Shown here: positions 16,417 through 38,729 of the stretch, in pieces
Position numbering within the stretch: position 1 is the first letter of the stretch
Layout: every line of letters starts with the position of its first letter
DNA from: Maribacter sp. MMG018
GTDB lineage: Bacteria; Bacteroidota; Bacteroidia; Flavobacteriales; Flavobacteriaceae
NCBI RefSeq assembly: GCF_018100785.1
Contig: NZ_JAGJEC010000002.1
Coordinates: 930,001 to 994,000 of the forward strand
Reading direction: 5' to 3'
DNA length: 64,000 nucleotides
Program-made: the position numbers and the translations under genes
Notes under the pieces: model-generated
Told to the model about the DNA's origin: nothing
Databases searched by the model: none
What the model saw: the letters and a program-made list of their open reading frames with translations, nothing else

Positions 16417-16483
16417 CATAGTCCACAGGACTCAAAATCAACGGTTTGTGTACGCACAAACCGTTTTTTTATGTCTTTTATTT
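16374..16483 (+). repeat. attL: 110-bp direct repeat at the island's left end
   Basis: Runs from the anticodon loop of tRNA-Met through the tRNA terminator. It is base-for-base identical to 58234-58343 and recurs, with 13 bases missing, at 60582-60678. A tRNA 3'-half duplication with an integrase gene beside it is the hallmark of tyrosine-recombinase integration. Confidence 0.92.
16439..16470 (+). terminator. Terminator of tRNA-Met
   Basis: Perfect 10-bp stem ACGGTTTGTG / CACAAACCGT with loop TACG and a T7 tail. It lies inside the att repeat and is therefore carried along in each copy. Confidence 0.88.
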
Positions 16484-16527
16484 CATTAATTTTACCTGCC
16501 GTATACGATAAAGTATACAGTTTGAAC

Positions 16528-19287: not shown

Positions 19288-20772
19288 ATGACTAAAACAA
19301 AACTAACCCTCTCTCAATTAGAACAGTATTTATCTAAAGCTGCGTGGATACTCAAAGGCCCTGTAGATGCTTCGGATTTTAAGGTGTATATCTTTCCGTT
19401 ACTGTTCTTTAAAAGAATTTCAGACGTTTATGACGAGGAATATAAAACTGCCCTGGAGGAATCGGAAGGCGATGAAGACTACGCCAACTTGCCGGAGTTG
19501 CACCGTTTTGTAATCCCCGAAGGGTGCCATTGGAAAGATGTACGGCAAACGACCACCAATGTTGGACTTGCCATTGAAAAGGCACTTCGTGGAATAGAAC
19601 AGGCCAATCAAGAATTTCTCTATGGTATTTTCGGTGATGCACAGTGGAGCAACAAAAACAAGCTTTCCGACCGTTTATTGATAGACCTTGTTGAGCATTT
19701 CTCTCAATACAATTTAAGTAACAGTAATGTTGATTCTGATTTGTTAGGGAATGCCTATGAATATCTTATCAAGCATTTTGCGGATTTAACCAATAAGAAA
19801 GCGGGTGAGTTTTATACCCCTCGTTCCGTGGTACATTTACTTGGTCTTATTTTAGATCCCCATGAAGGGGAAACCATATATGACCCGGCTTGTGGTACAG
19901 GTGGTATGTTGTTGGAATGCGTAGACCATCTAAAAGATAATAACGAAGATTACCGTACGCTGAAATTGTACGGACAAGAGAAGAATTTGACATCAAGCTC
20001 CATCGCCAGAATGAACATGTTCTTGCACGGTATAGAAGATTTTCAGATTGTTCGGGGCGATACCTTACGCAATCCCGCTTTTTTTGAGGCAGATGGTCTA
20101 AAAACCTTTGATTGCGTCATTGCCAATCCGCCGTTTTCATTGAAGGAATGGGGTGCTGAAAATTGGGCCAACGATCCCTTTGGCCGTAACATTGCCGGGG
20201 TACCTCCAAAAGGGAACGGGGATATGGCCTGGGTACAGCACATGATCAAATCTATGAACAGTACCGGCCGTATGACAGTGGTATTGCCGCATGGGGCATT
20301 GTTCAGAAAAGGGGCCGAAGGCAAGATCAGAAAGGCCCTTTTGGAACAAGATATGTTGGAGGCCGTTATTGGCCTAGGGCCAAATATTTTTTATGGCACC
20401 CAGTTGGCGGCCTGCGTTATGGTCTTTAAACAAAACAAGGAGGAAGCCAAAAAGGGCAAGGTGCTTTTTATCGATGCTTCAGAACAGGTGCGCGTGGGCC
20501 GGGCACAAAATTATCTAGAACCCGAACACGTTAACCAAATTTTTGATTGGTATAAAGGGTATAAAGATGTGGAGAACTACGTAAAAGTTGCATCTACAGA
20601 AGACCTACAGGAAAACGATTATAACCTGAACATTCCCTTGTACGTAGAAAAGATCATTGAGGACAATTTGCCAAGTGTAGAAGAAGCACTCGCTGATTTA
20701 AAAGTAGCATGGAAAGAAAGTCTAGAGGCCGAAGAAAAGTTTAAAAAGATTTTAAAAGAGTTTTTAGCATGA
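19288..20772 (+). CDS. hsdM: Type I restriction-modification methyltransferase subunit 1
   Basis: 494 residues. HsdM is the N6-adenine methyltransferase of type I systems. An N-terminal HsdM_N helical domain (LEQYLSKAAWILKGPVDASDF) is followed by AdoMet motif I DPACGTGG (199-206) and catalytic NPPF (280-283). The target-handling region (GAENWANDPFGRN, MVLPHGALFRKGAEGKIRK-like) is normal. It is the first gene of a ten-gene co-directional cluster and overlaps a second, different hsdM by 4 bp (ATGA). Its codon use is richer in G+C than that of most of the island. Confidence 0.93.
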   Translation: MTKTKLTLSQLEQYLSKAAWILKGPVDASDFKVYIFPLLFFKRISDVYDEEYKTALEESEGDEDYANLPELHRFVIPEGCHWKDVRQTTTNVGLAIEKALRGIEQANQEFLYGIFGDAQWSNKNKLSDRLLIDLVEHFSQYNLSNSNVDSDLLGNAYEYLIKHFADLTNKKAGEFYTPRSVVHLLGLILDPHEGETIYDPACGTGGMLLECVDHLKDNNEDYRTLKLYGQEKNLTSSSIARMNMFLHGIEDFQIVRGDTLRNPAFFEADGLKTFDCVIANPPFSLKEWGAENWANDPFGRNIAGVPPKGNGDMAWVQHMIKSMNSTGRMTVVLPHGALFRKGAEGKIRKALLEQDMLEAVIGLGPNIFYGTQLAACVMVFKQNKEEAKKGKVLFIDASEQVRVGRAQNYLEPEHVNQIFDWYKGYKDVENYVKVASTEDLQENDYNLNIPLYVEKIIEDNLPSVEEALADLKVAWKESLEAEEKFKKILKEFLA

Positions 20773-22232
20773 CCCAACAACAACTAGAAAAATACCTTTG
20801 GGGGGCCGCTACCCTGCTCCGAGGTACCATAGATGCCGGAGATTACAAACAGTACATTTTTCCATTATTGTTCTTTAAGCGTATCTGTGATGTGTACGAT
20901 GAAGAGTTTGAAAAAGCATTGGAAGAAAGCGATGGCGATCTGGAATATGCCTCCTTCGCCGAGCACCACCATTTTCAGGTACCCAAGGGTGCCCATTGGA
21001 ACGATGTTCGTGAGACTACCGTAAATGTGGGCTTGGCGTTGCAAAATGCCATGCGCGAAATTGAAAAGGCCAACCCCAATACGCTCTATGGTATTTTTGG
21101 CGATGCCAGCTGGACGAACAAAAACCGGCTCAGCGATGAAACCCTGACCAACCTCATTGAGCATTACTCCCAGCACAAACTGAGTTTAAGCAATATTCCC
21201 GACGATAAACTGGGCAATGCCTACGAATACCTGATCAAGGAATTTGCCGACGACAGCGGCCATACCGCCGCCGAGTTCTATACCAACCGCACCGTGGTAA
21301 AGCTCATGACTATGATTATGGACCCACAACCTGGGGAAAGTGTCTACGACCCTACTTGTGGTTCTGGGGGACTGCTATTGAACTGTGCGCTGCACTTAAA
21401 GGAAGAAGGCAAGGAATACCGTACGCTTAAACTATACGGGCAAGAGATCAATCTCATTACCAGTGCCATTGCCCGTATGAACATGTTTATGCACGGCATA
21501 GAAGAGTTTAGCATTGTACGTGGCGATACCTTGGCCCGCCCCGCGTTTTTAGAGAACGATGAACTAAAAAAGTTTAACGTGATCTTGGCCAACCCGCCCT
21601 ATAGCATAAAGGCTTGGGACCGCAAGAGTTTTGAAAATGACCCTTATGGCCGTAACCTTTGGGGTACCCCTCCACTAGGTTGTGCCGATTATGCTTTTGA
21701 GCAGCATATTCATAAAAGTATGGATGACAGTAATGGAAGATGTGTTCAATTATGGCCTCATGGTATTCTTTTTCGAGATAACGAAAAGAAGATGAGAAAA
21801 AATATGATTGAAACTGATACTATTGATTGTGTTATTGCACTAGGAAAGAATTTGTTTTATAACTCTTCAATGGAATCAGCTTTATTAATTAGAAGAACTA
21901 ATAAAGAAGAAAGAAAAAAAGGAAAAGTGTTATTTATTAATGCTTTTGAAGAAGTGAAAAATGAAAAAACTATTTCTTATTTATTAGATCAACATATTGA
22001 TAAAATTTATAAAGCTTATACTGATTATAAAGATATTGATGGATTTGCAAGAGTGATTGATATTGATAAAATATTAAAGAATGATGCTTCATTATTAGTA
22101 ACTAATTATGTAAAATCATCAAGAATACTTGATAACAATACTTTATCAGTACAAGAAGCATATAATAATTGGAGTCAAAGTTCTAAAGAACTAAATAATA
22201 GTATGAATAACCTTTTTAAAATATTGGATTAA
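20769..22232 (+). CDS. hsdM: Type I restriction-modification methyltransferase subunit 2 (mosaic)
   Basis: 487 residues, clearly related over its full length to the preceding HsdM but not a recent duplicate. Motif I is DPTCGSGG (194-201) and motif IV NPPY (275-278), so both methyltransferases look catalytically complete. Up to about base 21700 (residue ~310) the DNA is relatively GC-rich like the first hsdM; beyond it codons become strongly AT-rich through the start of hsdS. This suggests a recombination junction inside the gene. The stop overlaps the hsdS ATG by one base. Two HsdMs with one HsdS might form an M1-M2-S complex; this is an inference. Confidence 0.9.
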   Translation: MTQQQLEKYLWGAATLLRGTIDAGDYKQYIFPLLFFKRICDVYDEEFEKALEESDGDLEYASFAEHHHFQVPKGAHWNDVRETTVNVGLALQNAMREIEKANPNTLYGIFGDASWTNKNRLSDETLTNLIEHYSQHKLSLSNIPDDKLGNAYEYLIKEFADDSGHTAAEFYTNRTVVKLMTMIMDPQPGESVYDPTCGSGGLLLNCALHLKEEGKEYRTLKLYGQEINLITSAIARMNMFMHGIEEFSIVRGDTLARPAFLENDELKKFNVILANPPYSIKAWDRKSFENDPYGRNLWGTPPLGCADYAFEQHIHKSMDDSNGRCVQLWPHGILFRDNEKKMRKNMIETDTIDCVIALGKNLFYNSSMESALLIRRTNKEERKKGKVLFINAFEEVKNEKTISYLLDQHIDKIYKAYTDYKDIDGFARVIDIDKILKNDASLLVTNYVKSSRILDNNTLSVQEAYNNWSQSSKELNNSMNNLFKILD

Positions 22233-23386
22233 TGCAAATGAAGATTGATAAATCCAATTGGAAAAAAGTTAAGATAATTGATGTTTTTACCAAAAAAGAG
22301 GAAAATGACAAAGACAATGCAAAAAATAGATTTGACCGTTTTTTAAAGGTTAATCATATGGATGCGGAAACCTTACATATAAAAAGGTGGGGTAGCCAAG
22401 AAAATGGAGAAGAATTAAATCCAACGTTTTATAAAATTTTCAGAAAAGGACAAATATTGTTTCCAACAAGAAATCCTCATTTGAGAAGAGCCGTTTTAGC
22501 ATCATTTGATGGTATTTGTGGGGAGAAAACTCTAACTCTAGAACCGAATGAAGAATTTTTAATACCTGAGTTTATTCCTTTTTTATTTCATAGTGATTCG
22601 TTTTATGCTCATACAACTGGAGCAATAATTGGTTCAACAAATCCTCATTGTAGATGGCGTGATGTTGCCAACTACGAATTCCTCCTCCCCCCAAAAGAGC
22701 AACAGGCCCAACTAGCCGAATTACTTTGGGCTATGGATGAGGTTGTTGAGAAAAATACTGAACTTCTAGAAAAATCAGAAATAATGGAACGACTATCCTT
22801 AGCGGATTTATTTGATAAAAAGAAAGTCTTGTCAAATATACCATTAGGAAATTTGTATAAAAAAAAGTTTAAATCAATTGACCCAACTACACTTTTTGAC
22901 AAAGATGTTGAACATTTTAGTTTACCGTCTTTTATGGAAAACCAAGCGCCAGAAAAAGTTAAAGCAAGTTCAATTAAGAGTAATAAACTACTGATTAGTG
23001 ATGATGCCGTATTGTTTAGTAAATTAAATCCTAATAGACCTAAAATTTGGGCTGTTCGAAATCTGGGTAATGAATATAAATTAGGATCAACAGAATGGTT
23101 ACCTGTCAGGCCAAACAATGATTTTTCTATTAATTACATTCTTGCTTTTTTATCCTCACAGACTTTTATTCAAAGAGTTATGAGGTATGTTCAAGGCACT
23201 AGTAATAGTCATAAGCGAATTGATCCGAAGCGATTTTATTTATTAAAAATTCCGTTATTTTCTAAGGAGGACAGTGAAGATATAATTAATTGTTTATTAA
23301 GTTTTCAAAAATCCAAAGTGAAAACCTTACAAACTATAAATAGTTCCAAAGCCTTACAAAAGAGTTTAATCAATCAGGTATTTTAG
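22232..23386 (+). CDS. hsdS: Type I restriction-modification specificity subunit
   Basis: 384 residues with two target-recognition domains. TRD1 ends at CRWRDVANYEFLLPP, followed by a conserved spacer helix KEQQAQLAELLWAMDEVVEKN; TRD2 ends at HKRIDPKRFYLLKIPLF. Both TRDs are AT-rich whereas the spacer (about 22670-22740) is GC-rich, as expected if TRDs have been exchanged between systems. ATG at 22232 overlaps the hsdM stop; a second ATG six bases later is equally possible. Slightly short but complete. Confidence 0.88.
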   Translation: MQMKIDKSNWKKVKIIDVFTKKEENDKDNAKNRFDRFLKVNHMDAETLHIKRWGSQENGEELNPTFYKIFRKGQILFPTRNPHLRRAVLASFDGICGEKTLTLEPNEEFLIPEFIPFLFHSDSFYAHTTGAIIGSTNPHCRWRDVANYEFLLPPKEQQAQLAELLWAMDEVVEKNTELLEKSEIMERLSLADLFDKKKVLSNIPLGNLYKKKFKSIDPTTLFDKDVEHFSLPSFMENQAPEKVKASSIKSNKLLISDDAVLFSKLNPNRPKIWAVRNLGNEYKLGSTEWLPVRPNNDFSINYILAFLSSQTFIQRVMRYVQGTSNSHKRIDPKRFYLLKIPLFSKEDSEDIINCLLSFQKSKVKTLQTINSSKALQKSLINQVF

Positions 23387-23389
23387 GGT

Positions 23390-23902
23390 ATGGAGTATAA
23401 AGGCCCATATTGCTATACGTTGTGGCTTTCGGGTTCGGAAGAAAAAAGAGTGTTGTCAAAAAATGACTTAGAGGGTTATGCAACTACTTTTAAACACCCG
23501 GTAACACAAAACAAGACTCCAAAGATTTACATCTTAAAGCAAGAGGAAGAAATTGTTTATGTAGGCTATGCCAGCCAATCTATAGGCACGCGTTTGGCGC
23601 AAGGTATAAGGGCCAGTGGTCTTAACGGGTATCATGGGTATAAATGGAAACAGGCAAATGAATTGAATCTTTTGGTATTTGTGTTTGATCATACATTACA
23701 GGGAGATAAAGATGCCGATAAACCATATGTGCAATTTGCAGAATCGGTAGAAGCAGAACTGGTTTACCTAATACGTGAAAAAACCGGTCAATGGCCCAAG
23801 TTTCAAAACGAAATACATTTTAATAATCATAATTTACAAAAGGCAAAAGGGGTTGCGGAGGAAATTTACGCAATGGTTAATGTTCAAAAAAATAAAGAAT
23901 GA
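23390..23902 (+). CDS. GIY-YIG-like nuclease domain protein
   Basis: 170 residues. The two strands of a GIY-YIG fold are recognisable as KIYIL (45-49) and VYVGY (56-60), followed by Arg68 in SIGTRLAQ, a helix with Glu121/Glu123 (ESVEAELVYLIRE) and Asn140 in KFQNEIHFNN. The motif is divergent (IYI for GIY, YVG for YIG), so nuclease activity is likely but not certain. It lies 3 bp after hsdS and overlaps the next gene by 4 bp. Not a usual type I R-M component. Confidence 0.65.
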   Translation: MEYKGPYCYTLWLSGSEEKRVLSKNDLEGYATTFKHPVTQNKTPKIYILKQEEEIVYVGYASQSIGTRLAQGIRASGLNGYHGYKWKQANELNLLVFVFDHTLQGDKDADKPYVQFAESVEAELVYLIREKTGQWPKFQNEIHFNNHNLQKAKGVAEEIYAMVNVQKNKE

Positions 23903-24717
23903 CCTTACACGAAGCCATACAACAAATACTATTAAAGTATAATAGAGCCATGACTACCCAAGAATTGGCAGATGCTCTAAATAAAACCAAGTTGTATGTT
24001 AAGAAAAAAGGCTCTCCCATAATAACGGCCTATCAAATTCATGGCCGCACAAAAAACTATCCCCATTTATTTGATAAGACCGGAAGCCTGGTTTCACTTA
24101 AAAACAAAACAGGCCATGCAAAAATCTTAAAACCACAAATAAAAAATTCGCAAAAGGGTAAAGACGTTTTACCTAATGTTGAGTCGATAAAGGATTTAAT
24201 GAACATAAAAAAATTCAAATCGACCGCAGATATAGACAGCTTGGTGCCTCCAAAACCTGGCCTGTATTGTATTTGCATAAAAAACATACAAATGCTCGGC
24301 CCAGATTTTTCTACGGTCTTAAAACAACGTAAGCACAATATTATCTATATAGGAATGGCCTCCAAAAGCTTAAAAACTCGTTTTTTAGGGCAAGAACTTC
24401 GTGCCAAAGGTCATGGTACTTTTTTTAGAAGTTTAGGAGCCGTGTTAGGTTTTACTCCAGAAAAAGGATCATTAGTTGGAAAGAAAAACCAAAACAATTA
24501 CAAATTCTCTCCAAAGCACCAGGAAGAAATTATTGACTGGATAAATAAAAACCTCATAGTAAATTGGGTAGAGGTCGATGTAAACCTTGATGCCACTGAA
24601 AAAGGATTGTTAAAAACATATTTGCCTTTGTTGAATTTGACAGGGAATCCTGGTAAATTGACAGAAGTAACGCAATTACGGGATGAATGTAAACGGATAG
24701 CGAGAGGTAGCTATTAA
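23899..24717 (+). CDS. HARE-HTH-type winged helix plus GIY-YIG nuclease
   Basis: 272 residues. Residues 1-70 (MTLHEAIQQILLKYNRAMTT, then QELADALNKTKLYVKKKGSPI) match the HARE-HTH/HB1 winged helix common in restriction and chromatin proteins. Residues ~118-255 form a canonical GIY-YIG domain: GLY (121-123), YIG (150-152), Arg161, Glu234 and Asn250. All catalytic positions are present, so an active endonuclease is predicted. A basic linker with SQKGKDV joins the two. Overlaps the previous GIY-YIG-like gene (ATGA); the pair may act together. Confidence 0.75.
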   Translation: MTLHEAIQQILLKYNRAMTTQELADALNKTKLYVKKKGSPIITAYQIHGRTKNYPHLFDKTGSLVSLKNKTGHAKILKPQIKNSQKGKDVLPNVESIKDLMNIKKFKSTADIDSLVPPKPGLYCICIKNIQMLGPDFSTVLKQRKHNIIYIGMASKSLKTRFLGQELRAKGHGTFFRSLGAVLGFTPEKGSLVGKKNQNNYKFSPKHQEEIIDWINKNLIVNWVEVDVNLDATEKGLLKTYLPLLNLTGNPGKLTEVTQLRDECKRIARGSY

Positions 24718-24727
24718 AATAAATCTT

Positions 24728-25090
24728 ATGAACTCTAAAAAGGAATTTATTCAATTCATTAATACGACAGAGAAGGCATCGTTAACCAATTTAAATACAA
24801 GTTATTCTAAAATAAATGTATCAAAAGAAGTCTGGTGGCTAAATATACCAACCCATAAATTTACTGGCACCGTCAATTTACTATTAAAAACAAATAATAA
24901 GATCATTTGGGTACAACTACCTAAAGGGTTCGTAAATAATATTGGGACCTACTTTAAGATAAGACCAGATAGAGATGCTGTTGATTTGGAAATTTCCGCC
25001 GATAAAAACTATATGTATTTACGGGATATCAAATCTGGTGGTAGTGGATTTGACTTTAGTGGGTTTGTGAAGGATGAATTTATTTATTAG
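24728..25090 (+). CDS. Hypothetical protein
   Basis: 120 residues, no family recognised. Mostly predicted beta structure (VWWLNIPTHKFTGTVNLLLK, KIIWVQLPKGFV) ending in SGFDFSGFVKDEFIY. It is co-directional, 10 bp after the HARE-HTH/GIY-YIG gene and 27 bp before the giant exonuclease-helicase, so it belongs to the same cluster. Possibly a small adaptor; this is a guess. Confidence 0.6.
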   Translation: MNSKKEFIQFINTTEKASLTNLNTSYSKINVSKEVWWLNIPTHKFTGTVNLLLKTNNKIIWVQLPKGFVNNIGTYFKIRPDRDAVDLEISADKNYMYLRDIKSGGSGFDFSGFVKDEFIY

Positions 25091-25117
25091 ACGCTTTAAT
25101 GAATTGAGTTTGAGCAA

Positions 25118-28100
25118 ATGGATTTTAAGGATATAGAACATAAATACAAATTAGATTTTAATGGTTTGGCCGCCATTTTAAAAGAGAGACATATTACGCT
25201 TAAACTAGATCATCTAAATGATATCCCTAAAGAATGGATTCCAATAGTAGAAGAGTCTTTAGGCATAGTGACTTCAAAGAAACAGGAAGAAAAAACAAAA
25301 AATAGTGACCAAAAGAACATTAAGAAAAAAGAGGGTATAAAGAAAAAAAAGGAGATTGAAGCAAGAAAAAGGGAGGCTATACGTAAATCTAGAATTAAAC
25401 GGATTACAACTAATGAACATCCATCTCTATCAGTTGCTAAAAATAAATCAGAAAATACGTTTTATGCATACGTAAAATTTATAGGACGAGAATTAGACCA
25501 TGCCTTTATAAAACGAATTAATGATATAAACTCTATTGCTTCATTAGACATAAAAGCTAGAGATGATTCTGATTTTAAAATTATCGAAGATTGTTCTACG
25601 CTTCAAAGAGGTCAAATAATTTTATGTAAAAAAAAATCAAAAAAACATAATGTAGCAAAAATTAGTTCAGAAATACTAGAAGGAACTATTTCAAATAATA
25701 ATCAAACTACGCAATTTATAGATTGGTTATCCTTTGATTATCCTATTGAAATAAACAAAATAAGAACTTTTGGTTTTGAATTAGAAGATACTTTTGTAAC
25801 AACAAACTTATTTTATCATAATAACAAATTACGACTTAAAAAGTTGGCGGTTAAAGCGAATGAGCAAGATATTATTTCCAATATGGAATATATAATTCTC
25901 GATTCAATTTCAAATGTAACCGTTCCAGAAAATATTCAAAAATACATTGATGTTTATAAAACTAATGTACCTGTATCAAACTTTGCAACACTAGTATTAA
26001 GTCAATTTAAAAAGGATTTATCTGAACAGCAAAATTTCATAAATGAAGAAACGATCAACGCTCTTGTTGAAAAGTGGCAATGCATAGATCCATATTTGGT
26101 GACTTATACCAATATTAAGCATGATGAGTATTTCTTTTTATTTTTTGAAATGTGGATAAAAAGAAAATTGCCTATAAATTTTTGGGGAGGGCAATTGATA
26201 GAATCATGTATTAAATATCTATCTACTACGAATAAAAGCGTTGATACTGTTCTTGCCAACGTTTTACAAAAATCACATTTAGAAATTGTTTCATCTGCCC
26301 TAGAAATCTACGTCAACAGTGAATTTGAGATTATTAATTTCAATGAATTTAAGGTTTTAAACGTTTTAGTTTCTGCCTCTACTTTGCAAAATAAAGAAAC
26401 ATTAAAAGACCAGATATTAAACAAATTATCAAGGGAATTAAGTTTTGAACTTTGGTTAAATGAAGAAAACGGAAAATTCGATAAAGAATTAGCCATAAAG
26501 ATATTTCCTAACAGTAATCTTGATTTTCAGTCTCGAATATTAAATGAGTTATCAAGCATTGATATTCTTCCTTTATTACCGTTTATAAATAAGGTTTCAG
26601 ATAGTGAAGTCGAAAAAAAGGTATATGAGACATTATTAATTAGTATTGCTAATCAATTAGATTTTATTTGTTTTGATTTAGAGACCAATGGAGTGGTTGT
26701 TGACCAAATAGGTTGGGTCGATCATAAAAAAAATGAAAACTTTTTTTCTCATACAAATGAAATAGATTCTGGACTGGAAGAATTTGATAACTGTCTATTA
26801 TCTACTTCAACAATTTTTATAGGTCATAACATTGTTGAATGGGATATTCCAATCTTATCCAAATTTGAGGTAAACATACCTCAAAATCAAATCTGGGATA
26901 CCTTACTGGTAGAAGCTTTTTTAAGTCCAGAATTTAAGAATTATGCCTTAGTTACTGCACATAACGCGATAGATGACGCAAAATTAACGCGGCAACTATT
27001 TCTGAATCAGTTTTGGCGCATATTGTATATGGAAGATGACAAACTGATGTACTTGTTCTCATACTTACCAAGCAATATTGTAGAAAAAATAAAAGAATTA
27101 AAATCTAAGAAAGCTATAACCTGGAAACCATTAGCGTTAATCAATTCTGAAAAAAGAAAATTTTTCAGACCACAGCCAACGCCAAATGCATTGGTTAAAA
27201 AATTAAAAAATAAAATAGATGCTTTAGATGCTAATAATATATTAATTGTTGGTTCTGATAAATTTAAAAATGAAATATTAAGCATAAAAAACATTAAATT
27301 TCATTGTAATGATGCAACCAATAAAGATTTATATAAATTAAATAAAACTAAGATTCAGGAAATTGATGATACAAATGCTTGGGAAAAGCAAGTGTTGTTA
27401 AATTATGTGAATTATAATACATCCCTAAGCCAACCTACGTTTTGGGCTCAATTACCAGTAAGTGCTAAAATTAAAATTGAGAATAATGTAGATAACGTAT
27501 TAGACCTATTTTATCCTAGTGAAGAAATAATATGGTCAGGTAGAAATGTGATGTATTTTACGATTCCTGAATTATTATTGTATCAAGACCAGCTATCACA
27601 ACTAGATGACATCAATGTAATTACTGTTCATAATGATTTATTGTCTGTTGAGAATAAAAAGGTTTTAAAAGAAGTTAGTTTAGATTTCTTAATGAGTGAA
27701 ATTAAAAACGATGATCATATTTGGTTAAAGTTTTCTGGTGGACAAAGTTTCTCTGAGCTTACCTTAGAACAGTGTGAAGATCTTGAGGTTGATATACCCA
27801 AACCATTTGATAATATATGGATAGAAAAAGTAACTCTTAATAAATTTAATATTTGGGGCAATTTCAATTGGGAAAATTTATTACTCACTTTTGATATTAG
27901 TAGTATTGAAGATATTCAACCGAATGCTGCAATATTAAAAAAAGAGCAGACCATAATTGCCAAGATTAGCGCGGTCGAGACACTAAAGAATAAAGTAATT
28001 CGATTTAATCCGGAATCTTTGTATCGTTCTCGATATTGGGTTTTTCAAAAACAATTAATAGATCAAATAGTCGATCAAGAGAAGGCTTCTGTGTTATTGA

Positions 28101-29344: not shown

Positions 29345-32300
29345 TAAATTGGATAGACCATAACAAAGAGTACAATCCTATTAGAAAACATATCAAACTT
29401 GGTTTTAAAACGGTTGCAGATACACCAGGAATGATTGATGCTATTGTTGAAGATTTAAAAACAAAAAAATTTGATGAAGCGAAAAGTCGGGTATTGATTT
29501 TTGTAAGAACAAGAAAACAATCAGAGGAAATGACAGCTGATTTAAATAGATGTCTAAAAAAAAATAAACTTCCTTATGCAGGCAAAGCAGATTATTATCA
29601 TGCAGGATTAGAAGGTACTGGTAGGGCTGAAAAATATGAAAGTTATAAAAATGGTGAAATAGTAATTTTAATTGCAACGAAAGCTTTTGGAATGGGAATG
29701 GATATTAAAAACATTCATTTTGTATTTCATTTAGGGCCATCCTCAACTTTTGAAGATTATCTTCAAGAAGTAGGTAGGGCAGGGAGAAATGAAACTTCAT
29801 TTGAAGCTGCCGGTTATTCAAAAAGCAATCCATTACAAGCTAAGTGTTTAATAACACAAGATGATTTTAATAAAATTAAAGATTTACAGCATAAGAACGA
29901 GATTACTTGGTCTCAAATAGAACAAGTACGGACTACAATTTTTAATTATATTTCTAAATTTCGAGTACTTAAAATTGAAAAAGAAAATGCATTTCCATTA
30001 CCATTGGATTTATTAAAGCAAGATATAGAATATGACGAGGTTTATGATAAGGATACCGTGTTTAGAATCATTTTGTATTGGCTAGAAAAATTAAAAAGAA
30101 TTAAACTTGGTGTTTACACACCATCTCAATTACCTATAAAAATACTTCAAGACAATACAGATTTAATAGTCACAAAAACAAAGGAAGAAAATGAACAATT
30201 AAAAAGTTTGCTTAATCTTCTATTACAAATAAAAGGTGATAAGTTCGAAAAGTCAGAAATTGTGATGGTAGATATGCAATTTTTAAAAGATAGATTGAAA
30301 CTTAAAACAACTACAGAACTTTTTAAAGTATTATTTACAGCCCAAAGATTTAAACTTATAATTCTTGAAAGGAATATTAAATTAGAAATTACGCATATTC
30401 GTACACCAGAACTAAAATCATGGAGGTCAAATATAAAATCCCCTATAATAGAGGCAACTTTTGATTTTGCGACTGAAATTTTAAAGATAACCAAACCAGG
30501 TGATCAAGTAGTGCTAGATGATCAAGAGTTAAATTCTAAAATAAAAACTGTTATTCATTCTAATCTCTTACCTGAAAATATTTTTTGGAAAGAAAAAAAT
30601 AAAAAAAACGACCCGGTAACTAAAGAAGGAATCACTGAAAAATTAATTGAAGATTTTAAGAATGTCAGGTCAAAGTTTGCGTTTAAACTAATTAATTTCT
30701 TACCAAGATTAAAACATAAGAGCCATATAGAATATGAAGGAGAAAAAGCTTTTGTATCACAGTTGATCTATAATGGACATTATTCCAATGATATTTCTTT
30801 GAAGGAATTGAATGCCTTCAAAATTGATTTGATAAAATTGATTAATCACATAAGAAAAGAAAATATAAAAAAGGATAAAAAAACATTCAATATAGTAGAC
30901 TTAATTAATCAATTGCTAATAGAAGAAAAAGGAGATGACTATTTTCAAAAACTAATATTTATATCGAAAGGATTAGGTTATTTAAAAGGAGACGGTGGTG
31001 ATTTAGTGCCAATGGGAATTGAACTTTTTATTCATGATTTATCAAAAATTGATATAGAAAATGATACTGATTTAGAATATCAAAAAGAGTTTGACGAAAG
31101 TAATAAAATGAAAGAGTTAAGATTGTTAGCTCTTAAATGTCTTACCGATTTAAAAGATGACGAGCATGACAATTTTATTAAAGGGTATTTTAAATGCTCA
31201 AGTATTAAAGATTTAATACAACTTCTAATTGAAAACTGGAAAGAAAATCACCCTGATTTAGTCGCTTTTAGAGAAGAAGCTTTAAAAGAGGCTAAAGAAG
31301 CTTTAAATGAGAGTCAGAGAAAAGTTTATGATGCTAATTTAAATCAAAACATACAAGTGATTGCCGGCCCTGGAACAGGAAAAACGCATACACTGACATT
31401 AAGAGTGGCACGATTAATTCAAGAAGATAAAATTAACCCAGACAATATTTTGATTTTAGCATATAACCGTGCCGTGGTTATTGAACTAAAAGAAAGATTG
31501 GGTAAACTTTTTAAACAACTAGGATATTCAAAATTAATTCAGAAATTAAAGATTTTTACTTTTCACGGATTTATAAAACATGTTTTAGGGGCTGAACTTG
31601 ATGATTTGGATTTTGATGAATGGACACCTCGGTTCATTCAAATAATGCATAATACACCAGGAACTATTGGTCAGCGATTAGGAACGATAAAGTATGTATT
31701 TGTGGATGAGTTTCAGGATATAACATCGGAGAGGATGGAATTATTGAAATTTATTGCCAATCCAGAAAAAACTAGAATTTGTGTTATCGGTGACCCCAAT
31801 CAAAGTATATATGGTTATGAGCGAGCTAATTTAGGTGGTCCTATGAGTCCACAATCTTATTACGATACGTTCGCAAATATTTATAAGCCAAAAGTATTAA
31901 AACTGAATATTAATTATAGGTCTTATATTGAGATTTTAACGGAGTCTGAAAGATTATTAAGTCGTAATAATTCACGTTTTAAGATGCCAGAATTATTGGC
32001 TTATAACAAAACATCTTCAGCTAATTCACCGGTAGAAATTATAGGTTTCAGAAATAATAGGGTGGATTGGAAATTAAAGTTGCAAGAACTTTTAAGAATT
32101 AATGATGATAAAGGATGCTATCGTCAGATTGCTATTATGTTCCGTTCAAACAATGAGGTATATAGGGCATTTAATATGCTTAAAGATCTTAATTTGAATG
32201 CAAGGTTAAGAGTTCAGGGAGCAAAGGTAGCTCTAACCAAGACAAGAGAGTTTTATGAATTATTAAGAGTTTTAAAATTAAAGAGTCAAAACCAGTTAAC

Positions 32301-33195
32301 CTTAAATTATTTAGAAGAGATTTTAGTTCTAAAAACTACAATATTAAGAGAACATCCAAATTGGGATCAATACATACTAGATGTTTTTCATTGTTTGGTA
32401 TACGAGTTTGAAAAAGAAAAAGATGAAGACTCAACTTATGGGGATTTAATTCAATTTATTGAAGATATCGGACGTAATGATGATGGGCAGTTTGGTAAAA
32501 TATATGAACAGAATATAAAAGAAATAGGGGGAGATAATTCCTTGCAAGAAGTTGTTATTACAACTATGCATAAAGTAAAAGGTTTAGAATTTGATGCTGT
32601 GTTAATACCACCATCATTTTCAAACTTACCAACCACCAGTAAGTTTAACGAAGATGATTTACTTGATTATATTGAAGAGGAAAGACGTTTGTATTATGTA
32701 GCATATTCTAGAGCAAAGAGAAAATTGGTAGTTATAAAATACGATAGAGAGACAGCCTTGGAAGAAGGAATTAGATACACTGTTCCGCCTAATATTTTGA
32801 ATCAACTTGGTATTGCTGTTAATGAAGGCATTGATAAGCTTACATTGTATTGGAGCGCTAGTAATTATGGTAATGGCTGTTTCAATTTTATAAAAAACAA
32901 TGTAAGCCTCGGGGACACTTTAGTATTAAGGCCAATTATCAATGATTATGGAACGTTTTGGTATGCTTTTAAAAATAATCAAAAAGTTGCGTTGCTCTCG
33001 CATGCATTTTCAAATAAAATCAGTCACTTACCTGAAGTTAATGGATTTATAGTTTCTTCTATTTACGTTCATACTTATAAAGAATCATTAATATCTGATA
33101 AAAGGAATAATACAACTTATAGTAATAAATGGAACGAAGAATCAAAAAAACGTGGTTATGTTTATTTAATTGATTTTTCTGGGTATGGAAGTTAA
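29341..33195 (+). CDS. C-half of RecQ-type helicase fused to UvrD-type helicase
   Basis: 1284 residues. It begins with what normally follows motif III of RecQ: RVLIFVRTRKQSEEM (motif IV), YYHAGLEG, IATKAFGMGMDIKNI (motif V, ~115-130) and LQEVGRAGRN (motif VI, ~140-149). A ~450-residue linker without a clear RecQ zinc site leads to a complete SF1 UvrD/Rep-like helicase from ~660: Walker A GPGTGKT (~675-681), FVDEFQDIT (~788), IGDPNQSIYGYERAN, TTMHKVKGLEFDAVL and YVAYSRAKRKL (~1120). The last 100 residues look like a small beta-rich domain. The frame is closed upstream by a TAA at 29326; one extra T in the T6 run at 29334-29339 would fuse it to the previous gene. Confidence 0.8.
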   Translation: MINWIDHNKEYNPIRKHIKLGFKTVADTPGMIDAIVEDLKTKKFDEAKSRVLIFVRTRKQSEEMTADLNRCLKKNKLPYAGKADYYHAGLEGTGRAEKYESYKNGEIVILIATKAFGMGMDIKNIHFVFHLGPSSTFEDYLQEVGRAGRNETSFEAAGYSKSNPLQAKCLITQDDFNKIKDLQHKNEITWSQIEQVRTTIFNYISKFRVLKIEKENAFPLPLDLLKQDIEYDEVYDKDTVFRIILYWLEKLKRIKLGVYTPSQLPIKILQDNTDLIVTKTKEENEQLKSLLNLLLQIKGDKFEKSEIVMVDMQFLKDRLKLKTTTELFKVLFTAQRFKLIILERNIKLEITHIRTPELKSWRSNIKSPIIEATFDFATEILKITKPGDQVVLDDQELNSKIKTVIHSNLLPENIFWKEKNKKNDPVTKEGITEKLIEDFKNVRSKFAFKLINFLPRLKHKSHIEYEGEKAFVSQLIYNGHYSNDISLKELNAFKIDLIKLINHIRKENIKKDKKTFNIVDLINQLLIEEKGDDYFQKLIFISKGLGYLKGDGGDLVPMGIELFIHDLSKIDIENDTDLEYQKEFDESNKMKELRLLALKCLTDLKDDEHDNFIKGYFKCSSIKDLIQLLIENWKENHPDLVAFREEALKEAKEALNESQRKVYDANLNQNIQVIAGPGTGKTHTLTLRVARLIQEDKINPDNILILAYNRAVVIELKERLGKLFKQLGYSKLIQKLKIFTFHGFIKHVLGAELDDLDFDEWTPRFIQIMHNTPGTIGQRLGTIKYVFVDEFQDITSERMELLKFIANPEKTRICVIGDPNQSIYGYERANLGGPMSPQSYYDTFANIYKPKVLKLNINYRSYIEILTESERLLSRNNSRFKMPELLAYNKTSSANSPVEIIGFRNNRVDWKLKLQELLRINDDKGCYRQIAIMFRSNNEVYRAFNMLKDLNLNARLRVQGAKVALTKTREFYELLRVLKLKSQNQLTLNYLEEILVLKTTILREHPNWDQYILDVFHCLVYEFEKEKDEDSTYGDLIQFIEDIGRNDDGQFGKIYEQNIKEIGGDNSLQEVVITTMHKVKGLEFDAVLIPPSFSNLPTTSKFNEDDLLDYIEEERRLYYVAYSRAKRKLVVIKYDRETALEEGIRYTVPPNILNQLGIAVNEGIDKLTLYWSASNYGNGCFNFIKNNVSLGDTLVLRPIINDYGTFWYAFKNNQKVALLSHAFSNKISHLPEVNGFIVSSIYVHTYKESLISDKRNNTTYSNKWNEESKKRGYVYLIDFSGYGS

Positions 33196-33210
33196 ATTTA
33201 ATAATATGCT

Positions 33211-34329
33211 ATGTTGAGCTTCAAAAGGTTTTTAAAAAAAATAAAAGGAACTAAGGACTATAATGTAGATGAAAGTCGGCATCAAGATTATATCTCCTTG
33301 TGGACCGCTGGTTTAAATTATGACTCTAGACATGAGGCCGTAAGAAAGTGCACCTTGAATGAAAAAGTATATTTAGAAAGAGAACCTCAAAATATTAAGG
33401 ACAATAATGCCATTCATGTAAAAAGGAAAAATGGAGATTCTCTTGGATACGTTGGAAGAATGCATGCCCAGCAATTAGCTCCACTTCTAGATCAAAACGC
33501 AATATTCTCATGGGCAAGAATAGTCGCATTAAAATGTGATTTGGTGGAAAACATACACGGTGTAAAAATTGCAATAGCTGTTTCTCCTGAAATCATAACC
33601 TCTAACACTCCTAAGCAAAAAGATATTCATTTCCGATTTGACAAAAGTGAACATAATAATCTTTATTTGTTGTTGGATTGTGATGAAAGAACTCTGGGTG
33701 AAATAATTAAATTACTGAACCAATCTCTATTTGAAATTATTAGATCTGGAGTTAGTTATAGACCTGGTAGTGATGGAAATTTGTATTCTTGGTACTTGCG
33801 ACTTGAGAATAGCGTTGACCAAGAATCCATACATAAGCTATTAAGAGATAATTTTCCAATTCTTAATGAGCGATACAATCATGAACTAGAAGAAGAATAT
33901 TTTGAACTTCAATCAGAAGAAATAGAAGATTTAAAATCACGTAACAAAGTATTAACCGAAGAGTTATCCCATGCGAAAAAAAACCTAATAAAATTTCAAA
34001 GTATTCATAGCCATAGATCCAATCAATTTAAAGATTTGATTAATCTGACTTTACCTAAAGTTCAATTTATGGGTGATTCTATAGATGTTCTTAATAATGA
34101 AATTCAAGACTATTCTGGTCCTTTGAAAAAAATCAAAGAGATTTTGAATAACAATAATTACAAGGCAAAAAAGATTAAAACCCTAAATGGCTGGTTCGAG
34201 TTACACTTTAATACTGGTCAAAGAGACGATGGAAGACTTTATTATAGAAGATGTGCGCATCAACTAGATGTTCTCGTTTCTTTTAAAAAAACACAAAGTA
34301 AGGATATTCAGTTTCTGAAAAAACAATAA
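33211..34329 (+). CDS. HIRAN domain protein with coiled coil
   Basis: 372 residues. Residues ~28-110 are a HIRAN domain: SLWTAGLNYDSRHEAVRKCT, then VYLEREPQNIKDNNAIHVKR and LGYVGRMHAQQLAPLL. In eukaryotic HLTF this fold binds the 3'-OH end of single-stranded DNA; bacterial copies often travel with helicases and nucleases. Residues ~225-265 are a predicted coiled coil (YFELQSEEIEDLKSRNKVL, then TEELSHAKKNL). It lies 15 bp behind the UvrD-type gene and 8 bp before hsdR, so it probably serves the same complex. End-recognition by this protein is inferred. Confidence 0.78.
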   Translation: MLSFKRFLKKIKGTKDYNVDESRHQDYISLWTAGLNYDSRHEAVRKCTLNEKVYLEREPQNIKDNNAIHVKRKNGDSLGYVGRMHAQQLAPLLDQNAIFSWARIVALKCDLVENIHGVKIAIAVSPEIITSNTPKQKDIHFRFDKSEHNNLYLLLDCDERTLGEIIKLLNQSLFEIIRSGVSYRPGSDGNLYSWYLRLENSVDQESIHKLLRDNFPILNERYNHELEEEYFELQSEEIEDLKSRNKVLTEELSHAKKNLIKFQSIHSHRSNQFKDLINLTLPKVQFMGDSIDVLNNEIQDYSGPLKKIKEILNNNNYKAKKIKTLNGWFELHFNTGQRDDGRLYYRRCAHQLDVLVSFKKTQSKDIQFLKKQ

Positions 34330-34337
34330 ATAGAGTT

Positions 34338-37304
34338 ATGGCATTTAACGAACTTAATAGCGTAGAACATTATATTATTCATCAACTGAGCGGGCATAAC
34401 CTAAACAACCAAACGGCCCACGAACCGCGATCAACTTATAGTGCCCAATGGATATATAAAGCTCCGGACCAAATTCAAAGAGGGGTTAACGAAGTTCTTG
34501 TCGAGAAAGAATTAAAAGAAGCTTTGATTCGGCTTAATCTAGAGATAGAAGCCAATCCCGATTTGGCCGACGAAGTTATTTATAAGTTGAGAACGGTACT
34601 TTTAGCCGTGAACCAAGTAGGATTGGTCAGGGCCAATGAGGAATTTTTTAAATGGATGACCGGTGATAAAACGATGCCTTTTGGAGAAAATAATCGTCAT
34701 GTGCCTGTCCGTCTTATTGATTTTGAAGAGTTGACGAACAATACATATATTGTCACCAATCAGTACCGCATTCACCACCGTGAAACCAAGATTCCGGATA
34801 TCGTGATGATGATTAACGGAATTCCTGTTGTGGTAGGTGAGGCCAAGACTCCGATACGCCCTTCCGTAAGTTGGCTAGATGGGGCCCATGAAGTACATGA
34901 TGTTTATGAGAACTCGGTTCCCCAGTTATTTGTCCCCAACATACTTTCTTTCGCCACGGAAGGCAAAGAACTATATTACGGTGCCATACGCTGCCCTATG
35001 GAATATTGGGCCCCTTGGCGATTGGAAAACGACGAAGATGCCATTGCCAAAAGGCTGGGATTGGGCGAAGTGGGTAAAGAATTATCCGATTTGTTGAGTC
35101 CTAGGCGGTTATTGGATATTATGCGTAATTTTTCTTTGTTCTCTACGGACAAAAAGAAGCGTAGGATAAAGATCATACCCCGTTTTCAACAGTACGAAGG
35201 CGCCAATAAGATTGTAGAACGTGTTAAAGAGGGCCGTATTAAAAAAGGTTTGATATGGCACTTTCAAGGTTCCGGGAAATCGTTCTTAATGGTATTTGCC
35301 GCCCAAAAACTAAGGCGCGAACCGGAACTAAAAAGTCCCACGGTTATCATCTTAGTGGACCGGACCGATCTGGATACCCAAATATCCGGAACTTTCAATG
35401 CGGCCGATATCGCCAATGTAGAGACTACAGATAGTATCAAAGAGCTGCAAACTATGTTGGAAAGGGACACCCGTAAGATCATTGTTTCCATGATTTTTAA
35501 GTTTCGAGATGCCAAACCCAATATGAACACCCGGGAGAATATTATTGTTTTGGTAGATGAAGCACATAGAACACAAGAAGGTGATTTAGGGCGTCAAATG
35601 CGGGCAGCCTTGCCCAATGCATTCCTGTTTGGGTTAACGGGCACTCCCGTAAACAAAGCCGATAAAAACACTTTTTGGGCTTTTGGGTCAGAGGAAGACG
35701 CAGGTGGTTATATGTCGCGGTATACCTTTCAGGATTCCATTCGCGACGATGCCACTTTGCCCTTACATTTTGAACCTCGGTTGGTAGATGTCCATGTAGA
35801 TAAGGAAAATATTGATAAAGCATTCGAAGAATTTAAAGAAAGTGCGGCCCTGACCGATGAAGAGGCGGATGCTTTGAACAAAAAATCTGCAAAAATGTCC
35901 GCTTTTTTAAAATCACCGGAACGGGTTGCCAAAATTGTAGCGGATATCGCAACCCATTTTAAAGAAAAGGTAAATCCACATGGTTTTAAAGCCATGATCG
36001 TAACCCCGGACCGTTACGCTTGTGTTCAGTACAAAGAAGAGCTGGATACCTATTTTCCGGAAGAAGCCAGTACTGTTATAATTTCCACTTCGGCCAATGA
36101 CCCCTTAGACTTTAAACAAAAATGGGGAATGGACAAAAGCCGACAAGATAAAATAGTGGATGAGTTCAACGATCCACAATCGGATTTAAAGTTTATTATT
36201 GTTACAGCCAAGCTATTGACAGGTTTTGACGCACCGATACTTCAGACCATGTACTTGGATAAGTCTTTGAAGGACCATACCCTTTTACAAGCAATCTGCC
36301 GAACCAACCGTCTTTTTCCAAACAAGGCCTTTGGGCGAATTGTCGATTATTTTGGTGTATTCGATGATGCGGCCAAAGCCTTACAGTTCGATGAAGAAAG
36401 CATTAAGAGCGTAATTTCCAATCTATCGGAGCTGCGGGAAAAATTACCCAAAGCCATGAAGGATGCCTTAAGCCATTTTGATGGTGTTGATAGAACATTG
36501 GAAGGATTTGAAGGCCTAGAAGCGGCCCAGAACGCTATTAATACCGACAAGAAAAAAGATGCCTTTGCCAAAGATTATAAATATCTGTCCAAACTATGGG
36601 AATCTTTATCACCAGATAGAACATTGGATATATATTATGAAGATTACAAATGGCTATCCCAAGTATTTGAATCGGTAAAACCGGCTGCCGATAACATGGG
36701 GAAATTGCTTTGGTTTTCTTTGGGTGCACAAACCACTAAATTGATTCATGAAAATATCCATGTAGGCGATGTACATCAATTGGACGAGTTTATCTTGGAT
36801 GCCGATGTTATCGAGGAAATATTTAATAATCCCGACCCTAAGAATGCCAAGAAGCTTGAAAAGATTTTGATAAAGCGATTCAAGAAACATGCAGAAAATC
36901 CTAAATTCAAATCGCTTAGTGAACGCCTGGAGGCACTGAGAGATAAAGCCGAACAAGGTTTAATAACATCTATAGAGTTTGTGAAGGAATTATGCAAGTT
37001 GGCCAAGGAAACGGTACAAGCCGAAAAGGAACTGGAAGAATTGATTCAAGAAAAAACACCTAAGGCGGCCTTGACCGAATTGTTCCTGGAACTAAAAACG
37101 GATAAGACTCCTGCCGTTGTAGAACGTATCGTGACCGATATTGACGCTCATGTACGTATAGTCCGTTTTGAAGGGTGGCAGCAGACAAGTAATGGAGAGC
37201 GAGAGGTGCAAAAATCCTTGAGAAAAATTCTATGGGCCAAGTATAAAATTAAAGACCAGGTACTTTTTGACCGAGCCTATGCCTATATCAAAGAGTATTA
37301 TTGA
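34338..37304 (+). CDS. hsdR: Type I restriction endonuclease subunit R
   Basis: 988 residues, normal for HsdR. This is the translocase and nuclease of type I restriction. The N-terminal PD-(D/E)xK nuclease shows Asp154 (IPDIVMMING) and Glu168-x-Lys170 (VVGEAKTP). The SF2 motor shows Walker A GSGKS (311-315), LVDEAHRTQ (DEAH 407-410), GLTGTPV and a helicase C-domain with LLTGFDAPIL and QAICRTNRLFP. A helical C-terminal region, expected to dock on HsdM, follows. GC-richer than the helicase block just upstream, like hsdM1. It closes the cluster and is separated from the founding hsdMMS by about 11 kb. Confidence 0.93.
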   Translation: MAFNELNSVEHYIIHQLSGHNLNNQTAHEPRSTYSAQWIYKAPDQIQRGVNEVLVEKELKEALIRLNLEIEANPDLADEVIYKLRTVLLAVNQVGLVRANEEFFKWMTGDKTMPFGENNRHVPVRLIDFEELTNNTYIVTNQYRIHHRETKIPDIVMMINGIPVVVGEAKTPIRPSVSWLDGAHEVHDVYENSVPQLFVPNILSFATEGKELYYGAIRCPMEYWAPWRLENDEDAIAKRLGLGEVGKELSDLLSPRRLLDIMRNFSLFSTDKKKRRIKIIPRFQQYEGANKIVERVKEGRIKKGLIWHFQGSGKSFLMVFAAQKLRREPELKSPTVIILVDRTDLDTQISGTFNAADIANVETTDSIKELQTMLERDTRKIIVSMIFKFRDAKPNMNTRENIIVLVDEAHRTQEGDLGRQMRAALPNAFLFGLTGTPVNKADKNTFWAFGSEEDAGGYMSRYTFQDSIRDDATLPLHFEPRLVDVHVDKENIDKAFEEFKESAALTDEEADALNKKSAKMSAFLKSPERVAKIVADIATHFKEKVNPHGFKAMIVTPDRYACVQYKEELDTYFPEEASTVIISTSANDPLDFKQKWGMDKSRQDKIVDEFNDPQSDLKFIIVTAKLLTGFDAPILQTMYLDKSLKDHTLLQAICRTNRLFPNKAFGRIVDYFGVFDDAAKALQFDEESIKSVISNLSELREKLPKAMKDALSHFDGVDRTLEGFEGLEAAQNAINTDKKKDAFAKDYKYLSKLWESLSPDRTLDIYYEDYKWLSQVFESVKPAADNMGKLLWFSLGAQTTKLIHENIHVGDVHQLDEFILDADVIEEIFNNPDPKNAKKLEKILIKRFKKHAENPKFKSLSERLEALRDKAEQGLITSIEFVKELCKLAKETVQAEKELEELIQEKTPKAALTELFLELKTDKTPAVVERIVTDIDAHVRIVRFEGWQQTSNGEREVQKSLRKILWAKYKIKDQVLFDRAYAYIKEYY

Positions 37305-37508: not shown

Positions 37509-38729
37509 TCAAGAAAACCACGCTATAATTTCTTCCCCGATATGATCGTTTAGCTTATCATTATTCAAGATATTCAATTTACCGATCGCACATTTATGTT
37601 TTTCATCACCTTCAAAAGCGATAAACTCAGGTTCTATTGTTTCTATTGAAGGATATAACAAAAGTGCCTTAAAAGAAGTCCAATATTCGTTGTAAACATA
37701 CATCTGCCGAAGATCATGGGTAGATGGTTTACTAGCTCCTATATTCTTCCATTTTGTGTCTATTACGTAGGTTTCCCCCTCTTTATGAACGATAATGTCT
37801 GGCCTAATCTTTATACCGTTCCAAAACGGCCTTGATTCTTGGCCTTTAACCTCTAGACCTTCTGTCTGAAGTGTTTTTAGCTTGATCAAAACATATTCTT
37901 CCCATAAGTCATTCATATCAAATAGAAGGGCCAGCATGTTTTCTTTTCCACTTGAAATATTAGGAGCAAAATTTAATATAATGAGTCGGGCAATTTCCAA
38001 GGCCGTCCTATACGGTTCTGCTTTCCTGTTCACCGTTAATTTTTTAAATGTACTTGCGTTTACCACAATCCGGGAAACGTCAGGAAAATCGGCCTCTACC
38101 CTTTTATATTTAGAATATAGGTATGTTCCCGATGAAAATTGACCTATAATATCCAATGCCAATGATAAGATTTGATGTATTTGGTGGTTATGGTCATATA
38201 TTTGATGAGAGGTATAAAACCGTTCTTTATGTATAAGGTTTTGCCCAATGTGCTTAGCAAACACCAATTTGCCTTTTAATGCCTTTACATTTCCTGTTTT
38301 CTTACGGTATTGTTTTATCAATCCTTGCCGGACCAATAATTGCACCTCATTTAAAAACCATTCAAAATAAATGTCCAACAAATGAATCTGTTGCTTGTTG
38401 ACAATGGCCTGGCCCACCTTATTTACTTTTAGGCGTCTTGTAGCCCGAAGCATATCGATCAACACTTTTTGCCATAAAGCTTCATTGGACGAACCCCCAT
38501 CTATTTTGGGTAAAACCTCAATAGTTAGGCCATCTATCTGGATGACACCTACATATTGTGAGAATTTAATGCCTTTGTGCAATAGGGTAAAATACTCGTT
38601 GTTATGTAGCTGATTTAATTTAGCTAAGGCATTAAAATGCTTTTCTTCAAAAGAAACTCCATTATATTCCCGACCATAGTATAATTTACCATGTTCAAAG
38701 ACCTGTAATATGTTTTTACGCTTACTCAT
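37509..38729 (-). CDS. mcrC: McrC, nuclease subunit of McrBC-type restriction
   Basis: 406 residues. McrC partners the GTPase McrB to cut DNA containing modified cytosine (type IV restriction). The N-terminal domain (VIQIDGLTIEVLPKIDG) and the C-terminal PD-(D/E)xK nuclease (KIRPDIIVHKEGETYVIDTKWK, split at IVH) are present with Asp and DTKWK motif residues near 310-325. Its ATG overlaps the mcrB stop by 8 bp. Together with the type I locus it makes this part of the island a restriction cluster with opposing preferences: unmodified versus modified DNA. Confidence 0.9.
   Translation of the reverse strand: MSKRKNILQVFEHGKLYYGREYNGVSFEEKHFNALAKLNQLHNNEYFTLLHKGIKFSQYVGVIQIDGLTIEVLPKIDGGSSNEALWQKVLIDMLRATRRLKVNKVGQAIVNKQQIHLLDIYFEWFLNEVQLLVRQGLIKQYRKKTGNVKALKGKLVFAKHIGQNLIHKERFYTSHQIYDHNHQIHQILSLALDIIGQFSSGTYLYSKYKRVEADFPDVSRIVVNASTFKKLTVNRKAEPYRTALEIARLIILNFAPNISSGKENMLALLFDMNDLWEEYVLIKLKTLQTEGLEVKGQESRPFWNGIKIRPDIIVHKEGETYVIDTKWKNIGASKPSTHDLRQMYVYNEYWTSFKALLLYPSIETIEPEFIAFEGDEKHKCAIGKLNILNNDKLNDHIGEEIIAWFS

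Follow-up and report, generated by a model that had tools for sequence, protein, structure and literature searches.

Genes with defence functions of their own have been described inside type I restriction-modification operons, as for TgvAB in V. cholerae (PMC11411939) and PrrC in the EcoprrI operon (PMC3874165). DarTG2 of EPEC lies exactly between hsdS and hsdR, a gap that the accessible text of the report regards as a potential recombination hotspot (PMC12255303). A second point of reference is the group of non-canonical m6A/m4C type I systems, whose two methyltransferase subunits are marked, in the accessible part of the source, by the motifs AGEF/NPPF in M1 and AAEF/NPPY in M2 (PMC9613975). 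The locus described here, from Maribacter sp. MMG018, combines the two situations. It lies in a stretch of 64,000 nucleotides (contig NZ_JAGJEC010000002.1, positions 930,001 to 994,000), the whole of which is hereafter called the window.

The window contains a ten-gene operon in the order hsdM1-hsdM2-hsdS-giy1-giy2-u120-g7-g8-HIRAN-hsdR, with all ten ORFs on the + strand and a spacing of -4 to +27 bp, in agreement with the gene set and the tight co-directional packing of the original prediction. The best PDB chains for HsdM1 (19288..20772; M1-type, m6A by motif; PF02384 3e-106) and HsdM2 (20769..22232; M2-type, m4C by motif; PF02384 1e-85) are the M1 and M2 subunits of PacII, 7vru_A and 7vru_B respectively, and the characteristic motifs are found at positions 172 (AGEF) and 280 (NPPF) of M1 and 167 (AAEF) and 275 (NPPY) of M2. 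They are followed by the specificity subunit hsdS (22232..23386; PF01420 3.7e-9; PADLOC Specificity_I 1e-54), and the operon ends with the nuclease-translocase hsdR (34338..37304; TIGR00348 1e-163), which carries a PD...EAK nuclease motif and a DEAH motor, its Walker A having been missed by the motif pattern and read by eye in the translation. On the strength of the PacII matches and of the M1, M2 and HsdR motifs, this frame can be assigned to a known class and looks like a complete non-canonical (PacII-like, m6A/m4C) type I system. It shares with the PacII-type systems two different M subunits bearing these motif pairs, one S and one R; it differs from them in holding cargo genes between hsdS and hsdR, and its methylation is predicted from motifs.

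The inner genes are of several kinds. Two GIY-YIG-type proteins had been predicted: giy2 (23899..24717) is clearly one of them (PF20815 1.5e-36), with an N-terminal HARE-HTH match just under the cut-off (PF05066 3e-5), while giy1 (23390..23902) gives only a weak sub-cut-off match (PF20815, E 0.0047). The 120-residue protein u120 (24728..25090) has no confident family in Pfam, PADLOC or NCBIfam. Homologues of giy1, giy2 and u120 occur in Pareuzebyella (L017) and Salegentibacter (L018), and of giy2 also in Nonlabens tegetincola (L042). The last inner gene encodes a HIRAN-domain protein (33211..34329; PF08797 6e-14), and Pfam bore out this assignment together with those of the two hsdM, hsdS and hsdR. 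The remaining two genes, g7 (25118..29344) and g8 (29341..33195), form what we call the core. The g7 protein carries a cold-shock-like domain, for which the family profile gives CspC at 1.2e-8 and single proteins weak CSD hits, a DEDDh exonuclease (~514-636), a DinG-like SF2 fold (~688-1175) and the first RecA lobe of a RecQ helicase (~1204-1407); g8 carries the second RecQ lobe (~35-184), a middle region and a UvrD helicase (~655-1136). In Pfam terms, g7 ends in a DEAD lobe and g8 begins with a Helicase_C lobe and also contains UvrD. The motif search found the catalytic motifs as expected in the DEDDh, RecQ, UvrD, HsdM and HsdR parts.

The exonuclease, already proposed for g7, is upheld by the invariance of the DEDDh residues in two alignments (45/45 and 32/32 rows), the latter comprising D520, E522, D576, H615 and D620. 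RecQ motif VI and the UvrD Walker A are present in 81/81 rows; for RecQ lobe 1, 77 of the 103 core ORFs longer than 900 aa have a Walker A and 73 have DEAHC, an unclean count because the set includes genes of the g8 part only. The model of g7 1-1195 (pLDDT 84.1, pTM 0.63) finds S. aureus DinG (9ii8_A) as its top Foldseek match, at 4.9e-13 over the exonuclease and helicase parts, a score aided by the shared exonuclease. Superposition on this protein gives a VIA Z of 11.5 over 506 residues with an rmsd of 9.5. DinG and XPD chains reach Z 11.4-11.5 with 326-363 aligned residues, against ~233-271 residues for other SF2 motors; the SF2 fold is nevertheless firmer than the DinG label, because SNF2-type or chromatin-remodeller motors and other SF2 motors attain Z values of up to 11.1. 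By pattern, neither Walker A (G....GK[ST]) nor DE[AC]H is present between g7 640 and 1190 in any of 32 rows, and N964, R970, Y973, W974, D1151 and R1153 of this region are invariant in the same number of rows. In g8, Pfam at E 0.1 finds no RQC, zinc or HRDC domain after RecQ lobe 2. For the model of g8 150-660 (pLDDT 87.7), Foldseek returns nothing at E<=0.001, and the VIA Z values do not exceed 6.2, many of the rows being winged-helix DNA-binding proteins. Since it has no confident fold match, the middle of g8 may harbour a hidden nuclease or a sensor.

The division of RecQ between two genes deserves separate consideration. The RecQ models of NCBIfam cover residues 1207-1403 of g7 and 35-175 of g8, and RecQ is therefore divided between the two proteins, as the original prediction had it in placing RecQ-N in one gene and RecQ-C with UvrD in the next. 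The lobe 1 motifs close g7 (TGEGKS, DEAHC, SATV), those of lobe 2 open g8 (FGMG, QEVGRAGR), and the ATGA overlap at 29341/29344 falls exactly between the two RecA lobes. Relatives were collected with a g8 alignment in a pattern-based scan that covered 84,980 species, each by one genome, and the best 80 of 107 relatives together with three plasmid loci make up the 83 other core loci discussed below. In the tree derived from this set, from which L061, L083 and L008 were dropped beforehand as contig-cut or distant, RecQ and UvrD reside in one gene in 56/78 rows. This fused gene includes the exonuclease part and mostly measures ~2,450-3,100 aa where the contig does not cut it. The split between the lobes is seen in the other 22 rows (the window and 21 others), and by parsimony the split state changes four times on the tree. 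A sequencing error or a pseudogene was rejected as the cause of the split in the window, since 21 other loci break at the same point. A programmed frameshift as a conserved mechanism is likewise unsupported, as both frame offsets and overlaps vary among the split loci: g8 is offset by 2 in 12 loci including the window, by 1 in nine others and by 0 in a single one, and overlaps of 4, 8, 1, 17, 14, 23 and 38 nt are found, with a 15-nt gap in L081, while the called overlaps of 215 nt (L018) and 85 nt (L033) hinge on uncertain start codons. Some loci are further divided or simpler. In N. tegetincola a 129-aa piece matching g7 forms a separate ORF just before the remaining g7 (L042:5872-6351), either an interrupted copy or a further break; Rhodobacter CZR27 has the core in three ORFs (L006:12096-19497), and L087, L088 and L094 have a single ORF of ~2,490-2,500 aa. 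The window also encodes, outside the island described next, a separate single-chain RecQ-like protein of 632 aa (10959-12857) matching lobe 1 of g7 at 33%.

The operon is carried by a 41.9-kb island bounded by two identical direct repeats of 110 bp, of which the left (16374..16483) includes the 3' end of a tRNA-Met gene (16343-16417) and the right lies at 58234..58343. A tyrosine integrase (16471..17946, +; PF00589 2e-8) is found next to the tRNA at the left end. Just downstream of hsdR, the island holds a neighbouring type IV system on the opposite strand, composed of McrC (37509..38729, -; PF10117 3e-57) and a McrB-like AAA protein (38722..41541, -; PF07728 1e-14), and beyond this pair are PLD-like (42509-43423) and DUF2779 (44047-46011) genes. 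A third copy of the repeat, 84 bp long, is present at 60595-60678 and could possibly reflect a second accretion of 2.3 kb.

We propose that g7 and g8 together encode a defence helicase-exonuclease that is separable from the restriction genes around it: it would be cargo inside a complete-looking type I operon, itself part of the tRNA-Met island, and would degrade DNA from the ends that neighbouring restriction enzymes leave. We consider this reading somewhat more likely than not, as the best explanation of the architecture, conservation, exchange and association drawn from sequence and prediction, in which the end-dependent degradation is the inferred element. The two chains would have to meet to form the RecQ ATPase site, and the complex would then load on the invader DNA, at its ends or where it is single-stranded. 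RecQ and UvrD helicases both normally work 3'-to-5'. Here, the two motors would unwind the invader DNA while the DEDDh exonuclease chews the exposed strand. The ends could be supplied by HsdR, McrBC, GmrSD and perhaps the GIY-YIG proteins, a dependence that is postulated because no endonuclease domain was detected in g7-g8. Two core loci beside Druantia-like DruE genes (L028, L043), and the interrupted core genes of L042 and L006, speak against this explanation, as do the 70/83 other core loci with no window-type hsd relative in view. At a wider level, it can be tentatively hypothesised, with somewhat less than an even chance, that an undescribed machine combining cold-shock, DEDDh, a motor-dead DinG-like clamp, split RecQ and UvrD has been repeatedly recruited by restriction systems as a shredder of DNA after the cut. 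The same tentative hypothesis includes the proposition that, in flavobacteria and Hymenobacter, where RecQ is split between its ATPase lobes, the motor would be built only upon the meeting of the two chains.

The neighbours of the core in other genomes are consistent with a link to restriction. McrC (PF10117) is present in 8/44 core loci (L029, L032, L033, L035, L043, L045, L046 and L050), against 0.09 expected for the flank in view or 0.14 for a full 20 kb each, an expectation derived from 28 matches in 164.8 Mb of 44 genomes by a simple Poisson calculation in which relatives are not independent and genome sizes are rounded. N6 methylase genes occur in at least four core loci against 0.53 expected. 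In Zobellia (L016/L107), the core adjoins an EcoEI-type operon of R, M and S together with two GmrSD genes, and HsdRs that are divergent relatives of that of the window stand directly upstream of it in Nonlabens antarcticus (L021) and Sulfurovum (L035, with McrC). By sequence comparison, the type I systems adjoining the core thus belong to more than one family, the PacII-like and EcoEI-like ones being clearly different. The McrBC excess proves residence in islands and not joint action, because defence genes cluster anyway and the relatives are not independent. Other neighbours were observed. A Piwi protein lies beside the core in L045, and L047 has a homologue in the corresponding position. 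In 12 Bacteroidales-type loci (L044-L091), the fused core is immediately followed by an SF1 helicase-like protein of 593-697 aa (f1), and in six it is preceded by an S1-domain protein (f5); these neighbours possibly denote a second version of the system. In L060 (1435-4464) and L070 (189-3167), the gene that ends 4 bp before the fused core encodes a protein in which Pfam, applied to the L060 copy, finds Schlafen AlbA_2 and WYL domains.

These same neighbourhoods bear on the strongest rival reading, according to which the core would be an autonomous sensor-effector similar to Hna. Its cold-shock and DinG-like parts would sense phage single-stranded DNA or SSB and free an autoinhibited exonuclease, with no need of restriction cuts. 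Hna, as described in the accessible text, combines a 3'-5' exonuclease and an SF2 helicase and is switched on by a phage SSB (PMC13381803), and the cold-shock domain and the DinG-like fold devoid of Walker A are compatible with such a role, as is the fact that the core often stands with no recognised restriction neighbour in view. Taken alone, however, this reading leaves the McrBC excess and the several type I neighbours unexplained, and we regard it as rather unlikely.

Less probable still is a reading in which the type I enzyme itself employs the products of the embedded genes, which would bind HsdMS or HsdR and process the DNA that HsdR has translocated and cut. Its appeal comes from the recurrence of the arrangement: the core lies between hsdS and hsdR in 4/83 other core loci (best 80 of 107 relatives plus plasmids), namely Pareuzebyella (L017), Salegentibacter (L018), a Flavobacteriales MAG (L019) and N. 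tegetincola (L042), and because these four operons belong to other genomes the placement goes beyond chance. M1, M2, S, g7, g8 and R are constant across the five same-frame operons, window included, while giy2 is found in four, giy1 and u120 in three (all three genes together in the same number), GmrSD between M1 and M2 in three, and AbiEii-like genes, genes with a NO VEIN C-terminal part and genes with no assigned family vary as well. The other type I genes near the core, that is, the EcoEI-type operon of L016 and the divergent hsdRs of L021 and L035, can also be counted in favour of a type I subunit. The co-occurrence that the original prediction proposed to look for was recovered for g7 and g8 and not for the HIRAN gene, no homologue of which was found in the other four operons. 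McrBC and type I genes of other kinds adjoin the core far above expectation. Window-type hsd relatives were not seen in 70/83 other core loci, a count to be read in the knowledge that contig ends truncate many of the loci, that most neighbours are unannotated and that the search can miss other type I families, as it did the EcoEI-type hsdR beside L016.

The frame examined independently of the core argues against such subunits. HsdR searches unbiased towards the core returned 7/296 order genomes (E<=1e-150) and 6/395 class genomes (E<=1e-200), each including the window's own. This gives nine other genomes, whose HsdR identity is 53-86%; two more order hits at 36-37% were left out as another family. 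The interval from hsdS through hsdR is readable in six of the nine (L103, L120-L124), the contigs of the other three ending too early, one of them with an AbiEii-like gene adjoining hsdR. None of the six readable intervals has a g7 or g8 match. Three are empty (G649/L103 being one such empty-slot frame). Of the others, one contains an AbiEii-like gene accompanied by a small partner gene, one an AbiEii-like gene and a protein of 1228 aa with a weak AAA_14 match, and one an AAA_15 ATPase with a 168-aa gene. The Streptomyces and Exiguobacterium plasmids (L113, L114) have M1-M2-S-R with no insert. AbiEii-like, GmrSD, AAA and kinase genes were also noted in the hsdS-hsdR and hsdM1-hsdM2 gaps of L120-L124, L103 and L112. 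The two-HsdM frame is consequently a compact search site, worth mining for defence genes that are still unknown.

Frame and cargo moreover differ in identity and composition. Close frames share 86-91% identity with the window for M1, 75-79% for M2 and 80-86% for R, as against 34-46% for g7, 51-63% for g8 and 27-34% for HsdS among the core bearers, a difference of which faster cargo evolution could account for part. The GC content is 0.41 for hsdM and 0.418 for hsdR against 0.295 for g7 and 0.294 for g8 in the window, the step being smaller elsewhere (~2 points in L018). On the frame tree, core presence needs at least three changes, two contig-cut rows not being counted, and the core-bearing frame of L017 pairs with the coreless L121 (support 100/99); on the core tree, embedding in a window-type frame needs at least four changes by a quick method that carries a long-branch warning. 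It can therefore be said of the original prediction that the embedded genes are DNA-processing enzymes that occupy the hsdS-hsdR interval in five operons, whereas an obligate extended type I enzyme does not fit the unbiased frames, whose slots are empty or otherwise filled. Its other suggestion, a core relying on hsd methylation to tell self from non-self, finds no support in these comparisons. The inner block behaves, as far as sequence comparison goes, as exchangeable cargo in a type I operon. A phage or virus origin of the core was considered and rejected: the g7 pattern scan of viral contigs returned nothing, the g8 alignment against them gave eight weak hits at 25-41% identity, and phage genomes had no g8 match at 1e-15. 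HsdR was not found in viral contigs, nor were HIRAN and giy2 in plasmids.

RecQ and UvrD act in DNA repair. That the core is mainly a repair or genome-protection machine, lessening the damage of self-cutting by neighbouring restriction systems, would accord with its presence beside cutting systems and with the part of DinG-like proteins in DNA repair and stress responses, as far as the accessible texts go (PMC11981726, PMC12525004), but is very improbable for a core that is island-borne, exchanged like defence cargo and rare (the genome of the window is the single one with a match, both among 198 relatives at E<=1e-30 and among 395 phylum genomes at E<=1e-70).

If the proposed cargo shredder is real, restriction would not be finished at the cut, and a dedicated multi-motor exonuclease would repeatedly stand beside type I, McrBC and GmrSD enzymes. 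This would offer a testable answer to the question of what follows restriction in genomes carrying the core. The split RecQ, with an ATPase site common to two polypeptides, would be unusual among helicases.

The comparison with described systems places each of these elements. As for TgvAB, DarTG2 and PrrC, in the accessible accounts of these systems, genes of another defence function sit within a type I operon: extra same-strand genes lie between hsdS and hsdR with a GC step from 0.41 to 0.29, the frame occurs with no cargo (L103, L113, L114) and the core occurs elsewhere apart from window-type hsd relatives. The cargo of the window differs from theirs: its enzyme is a helicase-exonuclease with several motors, GIY-YIG and HIRAN genes accompany it, and its defence role is predicted. 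With ExoDinG, that is, S. aureus or B. subtilis DinG, g7 shares a DEDDh exonuclease, which is followed by an SF2 fold that may be that of DinG; this DinG-like part differs in lacking Walker A and DEAH by pattern, and g7-g8 adds the RecQ and UvrD motors and the cold-shock domain, the main text of the DinG review having no occurrence of RecQ (PMC11981726). Hna, compared by description only, is likewise a defence enzyme that unites an exonuclease with an SF2 helicase core, and the RecQ and UvrD pair is not seen in the accessible part of its description. GajB models of Gabija match the UvrD part of g8 and only that part, and DpdF models of Dpd only the RecQ parts of g7 and g8; among the PADLOC matches listed for the ten operon proteins, up to 25 for each, there is no GajA and no further Dpd protein except DpdC on u120 (E 0.069). 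The TOTE systems, also compared by description and from a partial source, have the cold-shock part in common with the core. A protein joining cold-shock, DEDDh, RecQ and UvrD parts, or the operon of the window, was not found described in the literature searched, which mostly excluded subscription papers. Embedding between hsdS and hsdR is thus a known phenomenon, and the g7-g8 enzyme as the core of such cargo is apparently undescribed.
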